A stretch of 64,000 nucleotides of DNA from an uncultured Brachyspira sp. Lineage in GTDB: Bacteria; Spirochaetota; Brachyspiria; Brachyspirales; Brachyspiraceae. The notes under the pieces were generated by a model. That model worked only from the letters and a program-made list of their open reading frames with translations, was not told the DNA's origin and ran no database searches. Position numbers and translations under genes: made by a program. Location: the NCBI RefSeq assembly GCF_944388875.1, contig NZ_CALXKQ010000015.1, forward strand, positions 1 to 64,000, in the 5' to 3' direction. Of the stretch, positions 14,372 through 43,372 are shown piece by piece; the stretch's first letter is position 1, and each line of letters starts with the position of its first letter.

Positions 14372-14399
14372 TTGACAATAAAATCTATTAAACTATAAT
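14372..14399 (+). promoter_or_regulatory. Promoter of the first mglB paralogue
   Basis: A perfect TTGACA (14372-14377) and TATAAT (14394-14399) are 16 bp apart, 23 nt before the ATG at 14423. Confidence 0.75.
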
Positions 14400-14422: not shown

Positions 14423-15454
14423 ATGATCAATAAGAAATTATTTTTATTTATATTAGTTATAATATTATCATCTTCTATATTGCTTTACACTCAAAAGAAA
14501 AATTCTTTAATTGGCATAGCATTGTACAGATATGATGATGATTATACAAAATATTTGAAGCAGTATTTGGAAAAGAATGCCAGAAATAATTTTTCTTTAT
14601 TGATGGTTGATTCATATAATAGTCAGGCTACGCAAAATGCTCAAATAGATATGTTTTTGAAGAAGAATGTTAATATTGTTGCCGTTAATTTGGTAGATAA
14701 GAATCAGGCACAAAAGATAATAGATAAGGTAAGCATTAATGATATACCATTAATATTTTTTGATAGAGAACCTGATTTTGATTCTATGAAAACTTATGAT
14801 AAGGTTTGGTACATCGGAGGCAAAAGCGATGAGGCTGGAATTGCACAGGGCAGGCTTATAGCAGAGAGCTGGAGAGAGCGTTTAAATTGGGATAAAAATG
14901 AGGATGGCAAAATCCAATGCATTATAATAAAAGGCGATACAAATGACAGAGATACGATTAACAGAACTGAATATATGAAAAAATATATAGCCTCTAACAA
15001 TATTAAACTTGATATTTTAGCCGAAGTTTCTGCTATGGGTAAAAGAGATTTAGCTATGGGTACTGTTGAACAGCTGTTTATTAAATATGGAAAGAAAATA
15101 GAGTATATAATTTGTAATAATGATTATATGGCTTTGGGAGCATTAGACGCTTTAAAAAAATACGGATTTAATAACAGCAGCAGAATGCTTAATTATATAC
15201 CTATAGTCGGCATTGACGGTATTTTAGAATGCTTATACGAGATAAAAAATTACGGGATATTTGCTACTGTACTTCAGAATCCTTCAGTTCAGACGCAGGC
15301 ATTATGTGCTGTTTCGAGAAATATACTAAATGGGAAAGCTCCTTTAGACGGAACGCATTTTAATTTTGATAATAATAAATATATTTCAATACCGTATATA
15401 CCAGTAACTGCGTCCAATTTGGAAAGGGCTATAGGAATTTATAATAGTAAATAG
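14423..15454 (+). CDS. MglB-like sugar-binding protein, most divergent paralogue
   Basis: This 343-residue periplasmic-binding-protein fold has an N-terminal signal segment (KKLFLFILVIILSSSILL) but no lipobox Cys, unlike its three neighbours. The MglB frame is retained, including the calcium loop DKNEDGKIQ and CNNDYMALGA. Several sugar-contact positions of E. coli MglB differ: the FFNK motif is FFDR, GHPDAEAR is replaced by TNDRDTINR, the tryptophan motif AMWD becomes AMGK, and VLND is VLQN. It probably binds a different ligand or has lost sugar binding. It has its own strong promoter. Confidence 0.88.
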   Translation: MINKKLFLFILVIILSSSILLYTQKKNSLIGIALYRYDDDYTKYLKQYLEKNARNNFSLLMVDSYNSQATQNAQIDMFLKKNVNIVAVNLVDKNQAQKIIDKVSINDIPLIFFDREPDFDSMKTYDKVWYIGGKSDEAGIAQGRLIAESWRERLNWDKNEDGKIQCIIIKGDTNDRDTINRTEYMKKYIASNNIKLDILAEVSAMGKRDLAMGTVEQLFIKYGKKIEYIICNNDYMALGALDALKKYGFNNSSRMLNYIPIVGIDGILECLYEIKNYGIFATVLQNPSVQTQALCAVSRNILNGKAPLDGTHFNFDNNKYISIPYIPVTASNLERAIGIYNSK

Positions 15455-15529
15455 CATAGATTAAATTTATATATTTTGACATCTAATTTCAAAAATTATA
15501 AGTTTATTAAATAAAATATGGCAATTTTA

Positions 15530-15557
15530 TTGACTTATTAGTTTTTTTTTATACAAT
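15530..15557 (+). promoter_or_regulatory. Promoter of the second mglB paralogue
   Basis: TTGACT (15530-15535) and TACAAT (15552-15557) are 16 bp apart, 33 nt before the chosen start codon. Confidence 0.65.
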
Positions 15558-15590
15558 AAAATATTATTCATATAAATGCAGGAGTTTTTT

Positions 15591-16610
15591 ATGAACAAGG
15601 CAATTTTGATTTTTTTAATTATTTCTGTATTAATAGGATGCAGTGCAGAATCAAAGGATAACGGAGAAATAGAAATAGGCATCACAATATACAGATATGA
15701 TGATAATTTTATTTCGTTTATGAGAAGGAATATAGAAACATTATTAAACGGCAGAGCGAAGTTTATAATGAATGATTCGGAAAATGATCAGGTAAAACAA
15801 AATGATCAGGTTGATGCTGCCATTCAGAGAAATGTTGATGCTTTGGCTATTAATTTAGTTGATCCTTCATCAGCCAGCTTTATGATTGACAAAATAAAAC
15901 CTACAGGAATTCCTGTGATATTCTTTAATAAAGAGCCTAGCAAAGCTGATATGGAGCTTTATGATAAAGCATGGTATGTTGGTACTTTGAGTGAGGAATC
16001 AGGAGATATTCAGGGAGATATAGTTCTTAAATCTTGGATGTCAAATGCTTCTTGGGATAAAAACGGCGACGGTAAAATACAGTATGTATTATTGAAAGGG
16101 GAAGCAGGACACCCTGATGCTGAGGCTAGAACTGAGAGAATAAAATATGTTTTAACTAACAATGGAATAGAAATAGAAGAACTTGATGAGCAGACTGCTA
16201 ATTGGGATATACTTCAGGCACAAAATGCTGCTGATGCTTGGATAAAAAAATATGGAAACACTATAGAGTTTATATTTTCTAATAATGATGCTATGGCTTT
16301 AGGTGCTTTAAAATCTATTCAAAAAGAAGGATATAATATAGGCGACAGCAATAAATTTATACCTATAGTAGGGGTAGATGCTATTCCGGAAGTTATTGAA
16401 GAAATAAAAAAAGGTACTATTGTAGGTACAGTTTTACAAAGTCCTAAAGATCAGGCTAAGGCCATTGTGGATATGGTTATTAATGCCGCTAATGGAAATG
16501 ATGTTCTTTCTGGAACAGAATATAAATTAGATGATGCTAAAGCTGTAAGAGTACCTTATAGAGCAATTACTTTAGATAATATTGATGATGCTCTTGATGC
16601 TTATAAATAA
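15591..16610 (+). CDS. MglB-type galactose/glucose-binding lipoprotein, paralogue 2
   Basis: This 339-residue protein has a lipoprotein signal (MNKAILIFLIISVLIGCS). The ATG at 15591 is preferred over the in-frame ATG at 15576 because the GGAG at 15579-15582 is then an 8-nt-spaced ribosome site. Ligand motifs are close to E. coli MglB: ITIYRYDDNF, FFNKEPS, the calcium loop DKNGDGKIQ, GEAGHPDAEARTE, TANWD, SNNDAMAL and GVDAIPE. The late Asn contact of VLND is replaced (VLQSP). It probably binds glucose or galactose or a close analogue and feeds MglAC encoded downstream. A terminator follows. Confidence 0.92.
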   Translation: MNKAILIFLIISVLIGCSAESKDNGEIEIGITIYRYDDNFISFMRRNIETLLNGRAKFIMNDSENDQVKQNDQVDAAIQRNVDALAINLVDPSSASFMIDKIKPTGIPVIFFNKEPSKADMELYDKAWYVGTLSEESGDIQGDIVLKSWMSNASWDKNGDGKIQYVLLKGEAGHPDAEARTERIKYVLTNNGIEIEELDEQTANWDILQAQNAADAWIKKYGNTIEFIFSNNDAMALGALKSIQKEGYNIGDSNKFIPIVGVDAIPEVIEEIKKGTIVGTVLQSPKDQAKAIVDMVINAANGNDVLSGTEYKLDDAKAVRVPYRAITLDNIDDALDAYK

Positions 16611-16632
16611 TTTATAAAAAAGATATATTTAT

Positions 16633-16678
16633 ATAGGCAATATAGTATACTTAAATTATACTAATTGCCTATTTTTTT
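16633..16678 (+). terminator. Terminator after mglB paralogue 2
   Basis: ATAGGCAATATAGTATA pairs with TATACTAATTGCCTAT (one small internal mismatch), followed by seven T at 16672-16678. Confidence 0.85.
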
Positions 16679-16768
16679 AAATAATTTTATATATATGTTT
16701 CAAATAATATGATATTTATTGATAAATTTATTATAATAATATATATAAATTAATTTAAGGAGAAGCGT

Positions 16769-17794
16769 ATGATAAAAAAAATTATTACCGCAATATTGAC
16801 AGTTTTTATTACTATTTTATTTTTAAATGCCTGCTCATCTAAAGAGCCGTTTATAGGAATTACTATATATCGCGGTGATGATATTTTTGCAAATTATATT
16901 AAGGTTAATTTAGAGAAATCTCTTTCAGGCAAAGTAAAATATATTATAAGCGATTCAAAAGATAATCAAGCCGTTCAAAATGAACAAATAGATAAATATA
17001 TTTCAAAAGGTGCTTCAGTTTTAGCTGTTAATTTGGTTGATTCTCAGGCAGCTGAAACGATAATTAATAAAGTTAGAGAAAAAAACATTCCTATAATATT
17101 TTTTAATAAAGCTCCGAATAAATCCGTTATGAATAGTTATGATAAAGTTTGGTATGTAGGTGCTTTCAGTGAAGAGGCAGCTAATATGCAGGGAAAAATA
17201 ATTACTGACAGTTGGAAAGCCAATCCTAATTGGGATAAGAATGGGGATGGAAAGATACAATGCATTATACTGCAGGGAGAGCCGGGTAATTATGATACTG
17301 ATGTTAGAACAAAAAATTTAATTTCTTTTATAGAAAATAGTGGTTTGGAGCTTGATATATTAGAACAAAGAACAGCTATGTGGAATAGGGACAGAGCTAA
17401 AACAATTATTGACAGCTTTATTTCAAATAATTTAGAAGATTCTGACATAAAAATAGAATATATTTTTGCTAATAATGATTCTATGGCTTTAGGTGCTTTG
17501 AGAGCTTTACAGTCATTTGGATATAATATTGGAGATTCAAACAAGTATATTCCTATAGTTGGGATAGATGCTATAAATGAAGCAGTGCAGGAAATATCTA
17601 AGGGAAATATTGTAGGCACTGTTCTTAATGACGGATTCTCTCAGGCAAAGGCTGTTGCTGATTTATCATTTAGTTTATTTAAAGGCAATGCGAATCCTAT
17701 ACTCGGAACTAGCTGGATATTAGATAATAATAAAGCTGTTAGAATTCATTATAAACCTATAACATCATCAAATTTGAATGAAATTAGAAAATAA
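16769..17794 (+). CDS. MglB-like sugar-binding lipoprotein, paralogue 3
   Basis: This 341-residue protein has a lipobox ending at Cys22 (FLNACSS). It keeps FFNKAPN, the calcium loop DKNGDGKIQ, TAMWNRD, NNDSMALGA, GIDA and VLND, but the key His of GHPDAEAR is replaced (GNYDTDVR) and the first ligand loop reads TIYRGDDIF instead of TIYRYDDNF. This suggests a changed sugar preference with an otherwise working pocket. AAGGAG stands before the ATG. No consensus promoter is obvious; TTGATA followed by AT-rich DNA lies about 40 nt upstream. Confidence 0.9.
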   Translation: MIKKIITAILTVFITILFLNACSSKEPFIGITIYRGDDIFANYIKVNLEKSLSGKVKYIISDSKDNQAVQNEQIDKYISKGASVLAVNLVDSQAAETIINKVREKNIPIIFFNKAPNKSVMNSYDKVWYVGAFSEEAANMQGKIITDSWKANPNWDKNGDGKIQCIILQGEPGNYDTDVRTKNLISFIENSGLELDILEQRTAMWNRDRAKTIIDSFISNNLEDSDIKIEYIFANNDSMALGALRALQSFGYNIGDSNKYIPIVGIDAINEAVQEISKGNIVGTVLNDGFSQAKAVADLSFSLFKGNANPILGTSWILDNNKAVRIHYKPITSSNLNEIRK

Positions 17795-17864
17795 TGTAAT
17801 AATATATTTTTGTGATATTAAGAATTATCATTTTGTATATTTATATAATTAATATGTTTTTTAC

Positions 17865-17892
17865 TTGATTTACTAGATAAAATTTATATACT
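17865..17892 (+). promoter_or_regulatory. Promoter of mglB proper and the mgl operon
   Basis: TTGATT (17865-17870) and TATACT (17887-17892) are 16 bp apart, 41 nt before the ATG. Confidence 0.65.
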
Positions 17893-17933
17893 TAATTTTA
17901 GAGAATATTAATTAATTTAAGGAGTTTTCATAT

Positions 17934-18989
17934 ATGAAAAAGTCACTTATTGCTACTGGAGCATTGTTGGTAATGTCTTCTATTTTTGTAATATCATGCG
18001 GAGGCGGAGCTTCATCTTCTAATGCTGCTGCAGACGGTCCTACTATAGGAGTAACAATTTACCGTTATGATGACAACTTTATGTCTTTCTACAGAAGAAA
18101 CATTGAAAGTAGAATGAGCGGAAAAGCAAATTTAATAATCAATGATTCACAAAATAACCAAGCTCAGCAAAATGACCAAGTTGATGTTATGATTCAAAAA
18201 GATTCAAAAGCATTAGCTATCAATTTAGTAGACCCTCAGGCTGCTCAAACTATAATAGCTAAAGCTAAAGCTAAAGAAATACCAGTTATATTTTTCAATA
18301 AACAGCCTAGTGCTGAAGCTATGGCTAGCTATGATAAAACTTGGTATGTAGGTACTACTCCTGAAGAATCAGGCGATATGCAAGGAAAAATCGTTGTAGA
18401 TACTTGGAAAGCTAATCCTACTTGGGATAGAAACGGCGATGGTATCATACAATACGTATTATTAAAAGGCGAACCAGGACACCCAGATGCTGAAGCTAGA
18501 ACTAGCCATGTTACTTTATACATCACTAATAATGGTCTTAAAGTAGAAAGATTAGAACCAGAACAAACAGCTATGTGGGATACTGCAAAAGCTAAAGATA
18601 TAGTTGATGCTTGGATGCAAAAACACGGCAACAAAATCGAATATATTTTCTGTAATAATGATGCTATGGCTTTAGGTGCTTTACAATCTGTACAGGCTTT
18701 AGGATATAATTTAGAAGGCGGAGATCCTGCTAAATTTATACCTATAGTAGGTGTAGATGCTATTCCAGAAATGATTAATGAAATCAAAAAAGGAACAGTT
18801 GCAGGTTCTGTTCTTAATGACCCAGTTGGTCAGTCTCAAGCTCTTGTAGATTTGACTTTAAACGCAGCTGCTGGAAAAGATCCTTTAGATGGAACTACTT
18901 GGGTTTTAGACGAAGTTAAAGCAGTTCGTGTTCCTTATGTTGCTATAACTAAAGATAATATAAATGTTGCTGAAGAAGCTTATAAATAA
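17934..18989 (+). CDS. mglB: Galactose/glucose-binding lipoprotein
   Basis: This 351-residue substrate-binding protein of the Mgl ABC transporter has a lipobox in FVISCGGG and is anchored outside the membrane. All the E. coli MglB contact motifs I can recall are kept: VTIYRYDDNF, FFNKQPS, DRNGDGIIQ (calcium loop), GEPGHPDAEAR, TAMWDTA, CNNDAMAL, GVDAIPE and VLND. It is the paralogue nearest to mglA, so it is the most likely main binding protein. Its codon choice is less extreme (more C-ending codons) than its neighbours, which fits high expression. Confidence 0.95.
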   Translation: MKKSLIATGALLVMSSIFVISCGGGASSSNAAADGPTIGVTIYRYDDNFMSFYRRNIESRMSGKANLIINDSQNNQAQQNDQVDVMIQKDSKALAINLVDPQAAQTIIAKAKAKEIPVIFFNKQPSAEAMASYDKTWYVGTTPEESGDMQGKIVVDTWKANPTWDRNGDGIIQYVLLKGEPGHPDAEARTSHVTLYITNNGLKVERLEPEQTAMWDTAKAKDIVDAWMQKHGNKIEYIFCNNDAMALGALQSVQALGYNLEGGDPAKFIPIVGVDAIPEMINEIKKGTVAGSVLNDPVGQSQALVDLTLNAAAGKDPLDGTTWVLDEVKAVRVPYVAITKDNINVAEEAYK

Positions 18990-19006
18990 TAAATAGTTTA
19001 TTATTG

Positions 19007-19042
19007 ACAGGGGTATTATTTATCTAATATCCCTGTTTTTTT
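19007..19042 (+). terminator. Intra-operon terminator between mglB and mglA
   Basis: ACAGGGGTATTA (19007-19018) pairs with TAATATCCCTGT (19025-19036) with one wobble, followed by a T run to 19041. Partial read-through would give more binding protein than transporter. Confidence 0.8.
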
Positions 19043-19084
19043 AATATTTTAAGTTTTTAGTTATTTTATAAAGGTTTTATATAT

Positions 19085-20584
19085 ATGGATAAAAAAGTTA
19101 TTCTTGAAATGAAAGGTATTTCAAAGTCTTTTCCAGGTGTAAAAGCATTGGACGATGTTCAGCTTACCGTAAGAGAAGGCGAAGTTGTGGCACTTATGGG
19201 TGAAAATGGTGCTGGTAAATCTACTTTAATGAAATGTCTATTTGGTATATATCATAAAGATAGCGGAACAATATTATTGGATGGGAAGGAAGTTAATTTT
19301 ACTTCACCTAAACAGGCTTTAAATAACGGTGTTGCAATGGTTCACCAAGAATTAAATCAGGTTAGACAGAGAAATATATCTGATAATATATGGCTTGGAA
19401 AATATCCTACTAAATTCGGATTAGTTGATGAGAAGAAGATGTATGATGATACTAAAGCCATATTTGATGATTTGGAAATACCTTTGGACCCTAGAACTAA
19501 AGTTTCTACATTATCCGTATCTGAAATGCAAATGGTTGAAATAGCTAAGGCTGTTTCATATAATTCTAAAATATTGGTATTGGATGAACCTACAAGTTCA
19601 TTAACTGAAAAAGAGGTAGCTAAATTATTTAAGATCATACGAAAACTTCAAAGCAGAGGCGTTGGTATGATTTATATATCTCATAAAATGGAAGAAATTT
19701 TACAAATTTCTGATGAAGTTACAATAATGAGGGATGGAAAATATGTAGCCACTACTCCTGCAAAAGAATTAACAACCGATATGATAATAAAACAAATGGT
19801 AGGAAGGGATCTTACTAACCGCTTCCCAGAAAAAACAAATACCCCTGCTGAAGATATTTTAGAAATAAAAGATTTTACAGCATTCTATCAACCTTCTCTT
19901 AAGGAAGTTAATTTTAGCGTTAGAAAAGGAGAGGTATTTGGAATAGCAGGACTTGTCGGAGCTAAGAGAACTGAAGTTTTAGAGAGTATATTCGGCATGC
20001 GTACTTTATCTTCAGGACATGTAATAAAGATGGATCATGAAGTTAATAACTCTTCTACTAGAAAAGCTATTAGAAATGGTTTTGCTTTAGTAACTGAAGA
20101 GCGAAGACAGACTGGCATATTCGGCATGCTTTCTATCAATTTTAATTCCACTATAGCAAATATAGATAATTATAGGAATAAATTCGGATTTTTAGATAAT
20201 AAAAAAATGCATGAAGATACCAAATGGGTAATAGACAGTATGCAGGTAAAAACTCCTTCTGAGAAAACTGCTATACAGTCATTATCAGGAGGTAATCAGC
20301 AGAAAGTTATTTTAGGAAGATGGCTTTTAAGCAAGCCTGATATTCTTATGCTTGATGAACCTACACGCGGTATTGATGTTGGGGCAAAATATGATATATA
20401 CAGACTTATTATAGATTTAGCTACAGTTGGTAAGGCTGTAATAGTAGTTAGTTCTGAAATGCCTGAATTGTTAGGAATAACTGACAGAATTATGGTTATG
20501 AGCAACGGACGTGTTGCTGGAATTGTTGAAACTAAAAACACTAATCAGGAAGAAATTATGGCATTGTCTGCTAAATATTTATAA
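19085..20584 (+). CDS. mglA: Galactose/methyl-galactoside import ATP-binding protein
   Basis: This 499-residue protein holds two ABC ATPase domains in tandem. The first has Walker [10 protein letters not shown] (near residue 40) and Walker [10 protein letters not shown]. The second has the degenerate GLVGAKRTE in place of Walker A, as in E. coli MglA, then [15 protein letters not shown] and [19 protein letters not shown]. It powers sugar import with MglC. It is 20 nt upstream of mglC and follows the mglB terminator; no separate promoter is evident. Confidence 0.97.
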
Positions 20585-20604: not shown

Positions 20605-21627
20605 ATGGATAAAAATAAAATAAACATTAAAACTATTAAATCATTTGTATTAAACAATGCTATATTTGCGGCATTACTGTTAATAATTATAGGTATTATC
20701 ATTAAAGACCCTAGTTTCTTCAAATTAAGTAACTTCTTAAATATATTTGCTCAGGCATCTACTCGTATGATAATAGCTGTAGGTATTGGTACTCTTTTGG
20801 TAACTCAAGGTAACGACTTAGGTGCAGGCAGAGCTGTAGGACTTGCTGCTGTTGTAAGTGCTTCTTTATTACAATCTACTTCTAACCCTACTAGAATGTA
20901 TCCTGATTTACCTGTACTTCCTGTTATACTTCCTATACTTTTAGTTATGCTTATACTTATGGTATTCGGACTTATAAATGGCTTTATCATTTCTAAATTA
21001 TATGTAACTCCATTTATTGCTACTTTAGGTATGCAGCTTATACTTTATGGTGTAACTAGTACTTATTTTGACAGACCTCCTTATGGTGCTCAGCCTATTG
21101 GTGGACTTGATCCTAGATTTACTAACTTAGCTCAAGGCGGTATTAAATTGGGAAGTTATACTATTTCATATTTAATTATATTTGCTATCATAATAACAGC
21201 TATAATGTGGGTTGTGTGGAATAAAACTAAATTAGGTAAAAACATATTTGCGGTAGGAGGTAACCCTGAAGCTGCTGCTGTTTCTGGTGTAAATATTCCT
21301 GTTACTCTTATGATAGTTTATACTATGGCTGGTGCTTTATATGGTATAGCTGGTTCATTAGAGGTTGCTCGCGTTGGTTCTGCTACTAATAATTTGGGTA
21401 ATGGTTATGAGCTTGATGCTATTGCTGCTTGTGTAGTTGGAGGGGTTTCTTTCTCTGGCGGTATTGGTTCTATATTAGGTATTGTATCTGGTGTATTAAT
21501 ATTCCAAGTTATTAACTATGGTATGACATTCGTTGGTATTTCTCCATACATGCAATATATAATTAAAGGTGCTATCATCATAGCTGCTGTTGCTGTTGAT
21601 ACACAAAAATATTTGAAAAAAGTTTGA
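20605..21627 (+). CDS. mglC: Galactose/methyl-galactoside permease
   Basis: This 340-residue inner-membrane permease of the BPD_transp_2 (RbsC/MglC) family has about eight to ten hydrophobic segments. Typical phrases are GTLLVTQGNDLGAGRAVGLA, NGFIISKLYVTPFIATLGM, AVGGNPEAAAVSGVN and VVGGVSFSGGIGSILG. AAAGGATTAATC precedes the ATG. It ends 11 nt before a small membrane-protein ORF that may be cotranslated. Confidence 0.97.
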   Translation: MDKNKINIKTIKSFVLNNAIFAALLLIIIGIIIKDPSFFKLSNFLNIFAQASTRMIIAVGIGTLLVTQGNDLGAGRAVGLAAVVSASLLQSTSNPTRMYPDLPVLPVILPILLVMLILMVFGLINGFIISKLYVTPFIATLGMQLILYGVTSTYFDRPPYGAQPIGGLDPRFTNLAQGGIKLGSYTISYLIIFAIIITAIMWVVWNKTKLGKNIFAVGGNPEAAAVSGVNIPVTLMIVYTMAGALYGIAGSLEVARVGSATNNLGNGYELDAIAACVVGGVSFSGGIGSILGIVSGVLIFQVINYGMTFVGISPYMQYIIKGAIIIAAVAVDTQKYLKKV

Positions 21628-42409: not shown

Positions 42410-43372
42410 TTACCAAGTCTTTTTAATTTCTTTTAATATGGCTTCTGTTAATTTTATAGTATTAACATCATCCTCTATAGAAACGAATCTTTTATCTTTT
42501 CCTAATATACAGTTGGCAAAATGTTCATCTTCCAATTTTAGAGGATTATCTCTATGTATAAATACTCTTTCTATAATTGACTCTTGTTTATAGTTTATAC
42601 CAATAGAAGTTTTTATATTGCTCTGACTAGCTGCCTGTCTATGTATTGTTATATCCTGAGTGGCATAATCTAATAAAAAGTATGCCTCTTTTGTACTTAT
42701 AGCCAAAGTTCTAATTTTTTCCTGAGTTACTCTGCTTGCACTTATTGTTGCTATTGTTTCATCTTCAAATTCTAATAAAGCACTTGCTATATCTTCATTT
42801 TTTGTTCTTATTCTTTTACCGCTTGCAGAAAATTTTATAACTGGCTTTTTTACTAATGAAGTTACAATATCTAAATCATGTATCATAATATCAAATACAA
42901 CTCCAACATCAGTAATACGCGGAGTAAAAGGAGCTAATCTTCTAGCTTCTATAAGATATGGTTTTTCTATTATATGATGAAGTTCCTGAACAGCACCATT
43001 GAATCTTTCAACATGTCCTACCTGAAGTATAACATTTTTCTTTTTTACTATTTCTTCTAACTCTACAGCCTGAGCATAAGTTTCAGTCATAGGCTTTTCT
43101 ACTAAAACATGTTTTCCTTTTTCTACAGCCTTTTTAGCTATTTCAAAATGATATATAGTAGGGCTTGCTATTATAACAGCATCAGCATTATCTATAGCCT
43201 CATCTATACTTTGAAATTTTCTTATATTATATTTTTGAGATATTTCATTAAGATGATTTTCATCAGCATCATATATGCCAGATAAATCAATTTGATTAAT
43301 TTGACTTATAACATTTAAATGAAATTGTCCCATTCTTCCAACGCCTATAAGACTTACACTTACTTTATCCAT
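42410..43372 (-). CDS. Gfo/Idh/MocA-family NAD(P)-dependent oxidoreductase
   Basis: This 320-residue protein has an N-terminal Rossmann fold (SLIGVGRMGQFHLNVI, then IYDADENHLNE), the family EKP motif in HVLVEKPMTETYAQA, and a C-terminal alpha/beta domain with DVGVVFDIMIHDLDIV. Members oxidise or reduce sugars, inositols and related compounds; the substrate here cannot be assigned. It is convergent with the dipeptidase gene (5-nt gap) and stands alone. Confidence 0.9.
   Translation of the reverse strand: MDKVSVSLIGVGRMGQFHLNVISQINQIDLSGIYDADENHLNEISQKYNIRKFQSIDEAIDNADAVIIASPTIYHFEIAKKAVEKGKHVLVEKPMTETYAQAVELEEIVKKKNVILQVGHVERFNGAVQELHHIIEKPYLIEARRLAPFTPRITDVGVVFDIMIHDLDIVTSLVKKPVIKFSASGKRIRTKNEDIASALLEFEDETIATISASRVTQEKIRTLAISTKEAYFLLDYATQDITIHRQAASQSNIKTSIGINYKQESIIERVFIHRDNPLKLEDEHFANCILGKDKRFVSIEDDVNTIKLTEAILKEIKKTW

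Follow-up and report, generated by a model that had tools for sequence, protein, structure and literature searches.

What does a bacterium with a single Mgl importer do with four genes for its binding protein? This question is raised by a Brachyspira genome (3.1 Mb, 48 contigs), of which one stretch of 64,000 nucleotides, called the window here, was analyzed. A sequence-only reading had listed four tandem MglB paralogues in it. Four open reading frames were indeed found in tandem, named D, B, C and A in gene order (Table 1), and all of them matched PRK15395, the NCBIfam model of MglB, near full length. The scores were 252 bits for D, 361 for B, 300 for C and 403 (402.6) for A; all four lay under the equivalog cut-off of 420 bits, A only just. 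Despite this score, A was assigned to the Mgl type by its sugar contacts, its gene context and the assignments of MglA and MglC. It has a Peripla_BP_4 fold and every sugar contact of the E. coli protein. Within the window, A was 59% identical to B, 50% to C and 37% to D, and C was 42% identical to D. Identities to E. coli MglB were 55% (A), 50% (B), 42% (C) and 37% (D). The relatives of D obtained with it as the query were Brachyspira records (alvinipulli, innocens, hampsonii and uncultured).

Table 1. Features of the mgl cluster and of the Gfo/Idh locus in the window
Feature	Position	Strand	Remarks
D promoter	14372..14399	+	TTGACA-N16-TATAAT, 12/12 to consensus
Copy D, MglB paralogue without lipobox Cys; predicted soluble periplasmic receptor	14423..15454	+	Pocket Y16, D91, D152, G183, Q256
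Copy B, MglB lipoprotein	15591..16610	+	N256Q and M182N fixed in the genus, remaining contacts intact
Terminator-like hairpin and T-run 3' of B, closing the D-B unit	16634..16678	+	-15.9 kcal/mol, z -5.4, 0/200 shuffles as stable
Copy C, MglB lipoprotein	16769..17794	+	In 8/26 Brachyspira genomes; H152N in this species only
A promoter	17865..17892	+	TTGATT-N16-TATACT
Copy A, canonical MglB lipoprotein, binding protein of the importer	17934..18989	+	Residues, family match, C-ending codons
Terminator- or attenuator-like hairpin between A and mglA	19006..19044	+	-16.7 kcal/mol, z -5.5
mglA, ATP-binding subunit	19085..20584	+	Exceeds NCBIfam equivalog cut-off
mglC, permease	20605..21627	+	Exceeds NCBIfam equivalog cut-off
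Gfo/Idh/MocA oxidoreductase	42410..43372	-	Probable original location of the cluster

Only one transporter had been recognized, and the genome as a whole has a single mglA-mglC pair. Another CUT2 permease, on contig C35, was 37% identical to MglC and had its own binding protein; no dedicated second permease for D was found in the genome. This second CUT2 system (G000 contig 35, 15729-22173; L003, L012) also includes a short-chain dehydrogenase and an alcohol-dehydrogenase-like protein, and a related cluster is present in genome G019 (L095).

The four copies were compared across 26 Brachyspira genomes. The calcium site, said to be kept by all copies, was confirmed: D134, N136, D138, Q142 and E205 were found in every genome, and position 140 varied. 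The residues read from the window were also correct. Every sugar contact is present in A, one Asn is lost in B (N256Q), which additionally has M182N, and the pocket His is replaced in C (H152N). However, the idea of a graded, stepwise loss of contacts across the four copies failed over the 26 genomes. H152N in C and N91D in D are private to this species, so the steps are a single-genome impression, and those of B are old and would still allow glucose to bind. Stepwise ligand loss was rejected on these grounds.

Copy A was found in 25 of the 26 genomes, with the ten contacts kept save for one N256Q. Copy B, likewise present in 25, has N256Q and M182N fixed and all other contacts invariant. Copy C is present in 8 genomes; His152 and all sugar contacts are kept in 7 of these, and Y12 is replaced in all C orthologues. 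Pocket residues of these three copies are conserved far above the average, and a Cys lies within the first 45 residues of all their orthologues. Neither A nor B has a fixed pocket difference between the main clade (18 genomes in the analysis of the D pocket) and the pilosicoli clade, which is our label for G011, G012, G013, G014 and G017. The N256Q change of B need not alter the ligand, because the same Gln is found in TpMglB-2 (Tp0684), a glucose-binding MglB of T. pallidum with a Kd of 1.1 uM for glucose and 33 uM for galactose (PMC4990184). TpMglB-2 shares this Gln with both B and D but differs from them in its circularly rearranged topology and its location in its own mgl operon. By analogy, B would be expected to bind glucose. 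Two or three of the four copies look like normal glucose/galactose binders, and on the best reading A and, judged by their residues, B and usually C are proteins of this type, lipid-anchored, that can work with MglAC. An in-frame stop was seen in copy A of G007 (L049, 5797-6849) and G025 (L073, 5417-6466), and mglC was split by a stop in G024 (L072); these stops may be real or assembly errors.

For copy D, the reported loss of the Asn, His and Trp positions (N91D, N256Q, H152D and W183G) was borne out, together with F16Y, as was the lack of the lipid anchor, since no Cys occurs in the first 45 residues. D was found in 24 of the 26 genomes and was intact in 23, the G013 copy being split over two contigs. 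It is absent from G001 and G003 and is thus dispensable. Among the 23 intact orthologues, none has a lipobox Cys within the first 45 residues, and all have F16Y and have lost H152 and N256. Position 183 carries Gly or Asp in 20 of the 23 and has kept its Trp in G002, G020 and G019; since the window's species is sister to G002, Trp183 was lost more than once. With its signal peptide and no lipidation, D is predicted to be exported and soluble in the periplasm. It lacks the sugar-contact set of a glucose/galactose binder and has the MglB fold and calcium site. The contacts that main-clade D retains are D14, D154, N211, D236, R158 (or Lys) and, except in this species, N91, and with these it might still bind a hexose weakly. 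In TpMglB-2, no glucose binding can be measured once the residue corresponding to N91, F16 or D236 is changed to Ala, and the W183A equivalent binds tenfold less well (PMC4990184). Judging from these mutant effects at equivalent positions, D would be expected to bind glucose poorly, and least in the pilosicoli clade, whose D has Gly in place of Asp236.

Pairwise dN/dS values were 0.04-0.15 for A, 0.06-0.14 for B, 0.10-0.21 for C and 0.035-0.18 for D. The range of D is similar to those of the other copies and speaks for strong purifying selection on D, which is not decaying. Over all orthologues, the D pocket was not more conserved than average. Within the main clade, conservation of the altered pocket was 0.947, against 0.795 for random sites (P 0.009; 0.9% of random site sets were as high). 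D has Asp152 and Gly183 in the main clade and Ser152, Glu154, Asp183, Asp211 and Gly236 in the pilosicoli clade, with E154, D211 and G236 as the three fixed differences. A pocket conserved in one clade and fixed for other residues in the other indicates remodelling by clade, not random loss. That D is a pseudogene was ruled out by dN/dS and the conserved pocket. An AlphaFold model built from the D alignment had a mean pLDDT of 90.8, with the signal region alone poor, and its best PDB matches were glucose-bound MglB structures (TM-score of 0.86 by target length). The equivalent of E. coli Gly74, a Trg-contact site, is a variable position in these copies and was uninformative. Compared with MglB of E. 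coli and Salmonella (PDB 2fvy and 1gca), the Brachyspira proteins share the fold and the calcium site, and A shares every sugar contact, but A, B and C are lipoproteins, whereas D is unlipidated, differs at 5 of 10 contacts in this species and occurs without the permease in one genome.

That genome is G019 (2.0 Mb, 99% complete, about 20 contigs, a single assembly), which has D without A, B, C, mglA and mglC. Its best match to MglC was 35% identical and its best match to MglA 44%; MglC of other genomes was at least 93% identical. The two CUT2 permease clusters of G019 closest to Mgl each have their own binding protein. D is clustered with the mgl genes in most genomes; in the five pilosicoli-clade genomes, D-B (with D split in G013) lies apart from A-mglA-mglC, on another contig or tens of kb away. 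The gene order in G019 (locus L067) is FTHFS, Gfo/Idh, D, and Gfo/Idh is immediately 5' of D both there and in the pilosicoli clade. In G001 and G003, Gfo/Idh is followed by B. In the window, the Gfo/Idh gene sits beside FTHFS (formate-tetrahydrofolate ligase), about 27 kb from D. These placements point to an ancestral Gfo/Idh-D-B site, and the mgl cluster probably stood at the Gfo/Idh locus originally. The neighbors of D across genomes, named by eye from the sequence, were queA, aroB, a large membrane protein, Gfo/Idh, LexA or a SpoIID-like protein, none of them sensory. No gene for a methyl-accepting chemotaxis protein (MCP) or sensor kinase adjoined D in any genome examined, so no partner was identified for D. 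MCP-domain matches numbered 36 in the window's genome and 14 in G019.

The first, second and fourth copies had each been credited with a promoter of their own. This held firmly for D, whose promoter is strong, through conservation for A, and weakly for B. A perfect D promoter with a spacer of 16-17 bp was found in 21 of 23 genomes and an 11/12 match in one, and it was absent in G019. It is the strongest promoter of the cluster in nearly all genomes, and a D-type promoter is still present 5' of B in both genomes that lack D. Perfect matches are rare: both strands of the 64 kb hold four, and chance gives 0.2 per strand of the shuffled window. Upstream of A, the blocks CTTGATTTA and TATATACT were conserved in 14 of 14 representatives, including those where A lies apart from D-B. 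The hairpin 3' of B, the promoter region of A and the hairpin between A and mglA make it likely that D-B and A//mglA-mglC are separate units. The fraction of C-ending codons in this genome was 0.30 in A and 0.11-0.15 in the other copies, which, together with a lower dS, suggests higher expression of A.

We favor, with moderate confidence, the explanation that MglAC is served by A, B and usually C, and that D, soluble in the periplasm and not coupled to the importer, acts as receptor for a new ligand, probably in sensing. A single Mgl importer (A-mglA-mglC) would then be accompanied by extra MglB paralogues with different fates. D would be a neofunctionalized MglB that keeps the calcium site and the Venus-flytrap fold and has a rebuilt sugar pocket, probably a poor site for glucose. 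Expressed from a strong constitutive-type promoter of its own and not needing MglAC, it would most likely bind a different small ligand and, once closed, dock on a membrane receptor, one of the many MCPs or another sensor, and not on the permease. The signaling step is suggested by the dual role of E. coli MglB, the galactose chemoreceptor, in transport and chemotaxis (PMC4990184), by the 36 MCP-domain matches and by the fact that D needs no permease where it occurs alone.

The main rival is that all four copies feed MglAC and widen its substrate range, D being the most divergent donor. Several binding proteins on one permease are a known arrangement, MglAC is the sole Mgl permease, and the copies share a cluster in most genomes. 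However, D is kept in G019 without MglAC and is separated, with B, from A-mglA-mglC in the pilosicoli clade, and we regard this rival as possible but doubtful. Ligand diversification of one importer, offered by the sequence-only reading, was not supported for B: its Gln256 fits glucose binding as in TpMglB-2, and its other contacts do not vary. C keeps its contacts in 7 of its 8 genomes, and G019 speaks against a link between D and the importer. The other option offered, a soluble sensor, is supported for D by the missing lipobox, the intact fold, purifying selection, the conserved remodelled pocket, the strong promoter and importer independence, from which a sensing role may be proposed.

It is very improbable that D is a paralogue in decay, no longer able to bind a ligand and without a specific function. 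Decay would fit the differences in pocket residues between clades and the two genomes without D, but not the low dN/dS, the invariant calcium site, an altered pocket conserved in the main clade, a strong promoter in 22 of 23 genomes, or an intact D in the smallest genome. D might also act without a small-molecule ligand, as a structural or periplasmic protein (adhesin-like, a chaperone, or working together with the Gfo/Idh enzyme or with envelope glycan synthesis). Such a role agrees with the Gfo/Idh gene directly 5' of D in G019 and the pilosicoli clade, at what is probably the ancestral site, and with a galactose-glucose binding protein, copy not identified, that is reported to be immune-reactive with B. 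hyodysenteriae challenge sera (PMC5415613). We consider it unlikely all the same, as the main-clade pocket is conserved beyond average, the fold matches glucose-bound MglB, and Gfo/Idh is apart from D in the window.

D has its closest parallel in TpMglB-1 (Tp0545), an orphan of Treponema pallidum that is also a spirochaete MglB homologue outside any transporter operon, with degenerate glucose contacts (N14, L16, S154, C158 and D183) and an intact calcium site (PMC4990184; L093). The MglB contacts at locus L093, from a 1.14-Mb outgroup genome, are exactly those published for Tp0545. Unlike D, TpMglB-1 is a putative lipoprotein, keeps His152 and Asn256, and is only 31% identical to D; because the tree puts it with outgroup MglB proteins, the evidence so far speaks against its being orthologous to D. 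In the same family, a sister genus (G065 and G073) has a second, non-lipidated MglB without importer neighbors (L086 and L088). Like D, it has no lipobox Cys and no adjacent importer genes, and it has Gln256 and Gly237; unlike D, it keeps F16, H152, D154, R158 and W183, with contacts otherwise canonical. A tree from all columns grouped D with this orphan (83/89), and with the pocket columns and the Tp0545 row left out, D grouped with C (89/82). In topology tests, D with the sister-genus orphan was not rejected (p 0.26), and B with D was weakly rejected (p 0.03). PA0602 and PA0222 of Pseudomonas aeruginosa are, like D, solute-binding proteins outside transporter operons and were studied for sensor kinase activation, but they belong to the SBP_bac_8 family and have other ligands; the same work cautions that gene association alone is no proof of a functional link (PMC11113362).

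Spirochaete MglB paralogues and orphan solute-binding proteins are already known. A literature search whose reach did not extend to the original B. pilosicoli MglB paper (PMC98373) found no description of four MglB copies in Brachyspira. Nor did the literature searched describe an MglB that occurs throughout a genus, is not lipidated, does not depend on the importer and differs in its pocket between clades. Chemotaxis toward mucus is considered important for colonization by Brachyspira, and to our knowledge no ligand has been identified for Brachyspira chemoreceptors. B. hyodysenteriae has 46 MCP genes (PMC2650404). D, a conserved binding protein free of the importer and with a pocket that differs by clade, offers a concrete candidate sensory protein that can be purified, and it would give a second spirochaete MglB released from transport, after Tp0545. 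More speculatively, and with considerable doubt, D may represent a dedicated soluble MglB-derived receptor of the Brachyspiraceae that split from import before the genus diversified, had its pocket retuned to other ligands in each clade, and passes its signal to chemoreceptors, so that these spirochaetes of the mucus are led to compounds specific to host or diet. The sister genus itself uses a different MglB and, in G073, an MglA and an MglC about 50% identical (L087, L089 and L090), grouping with other spirochaetes, so that the importer of Brachyspira or of the sister genus may have been exchanged.
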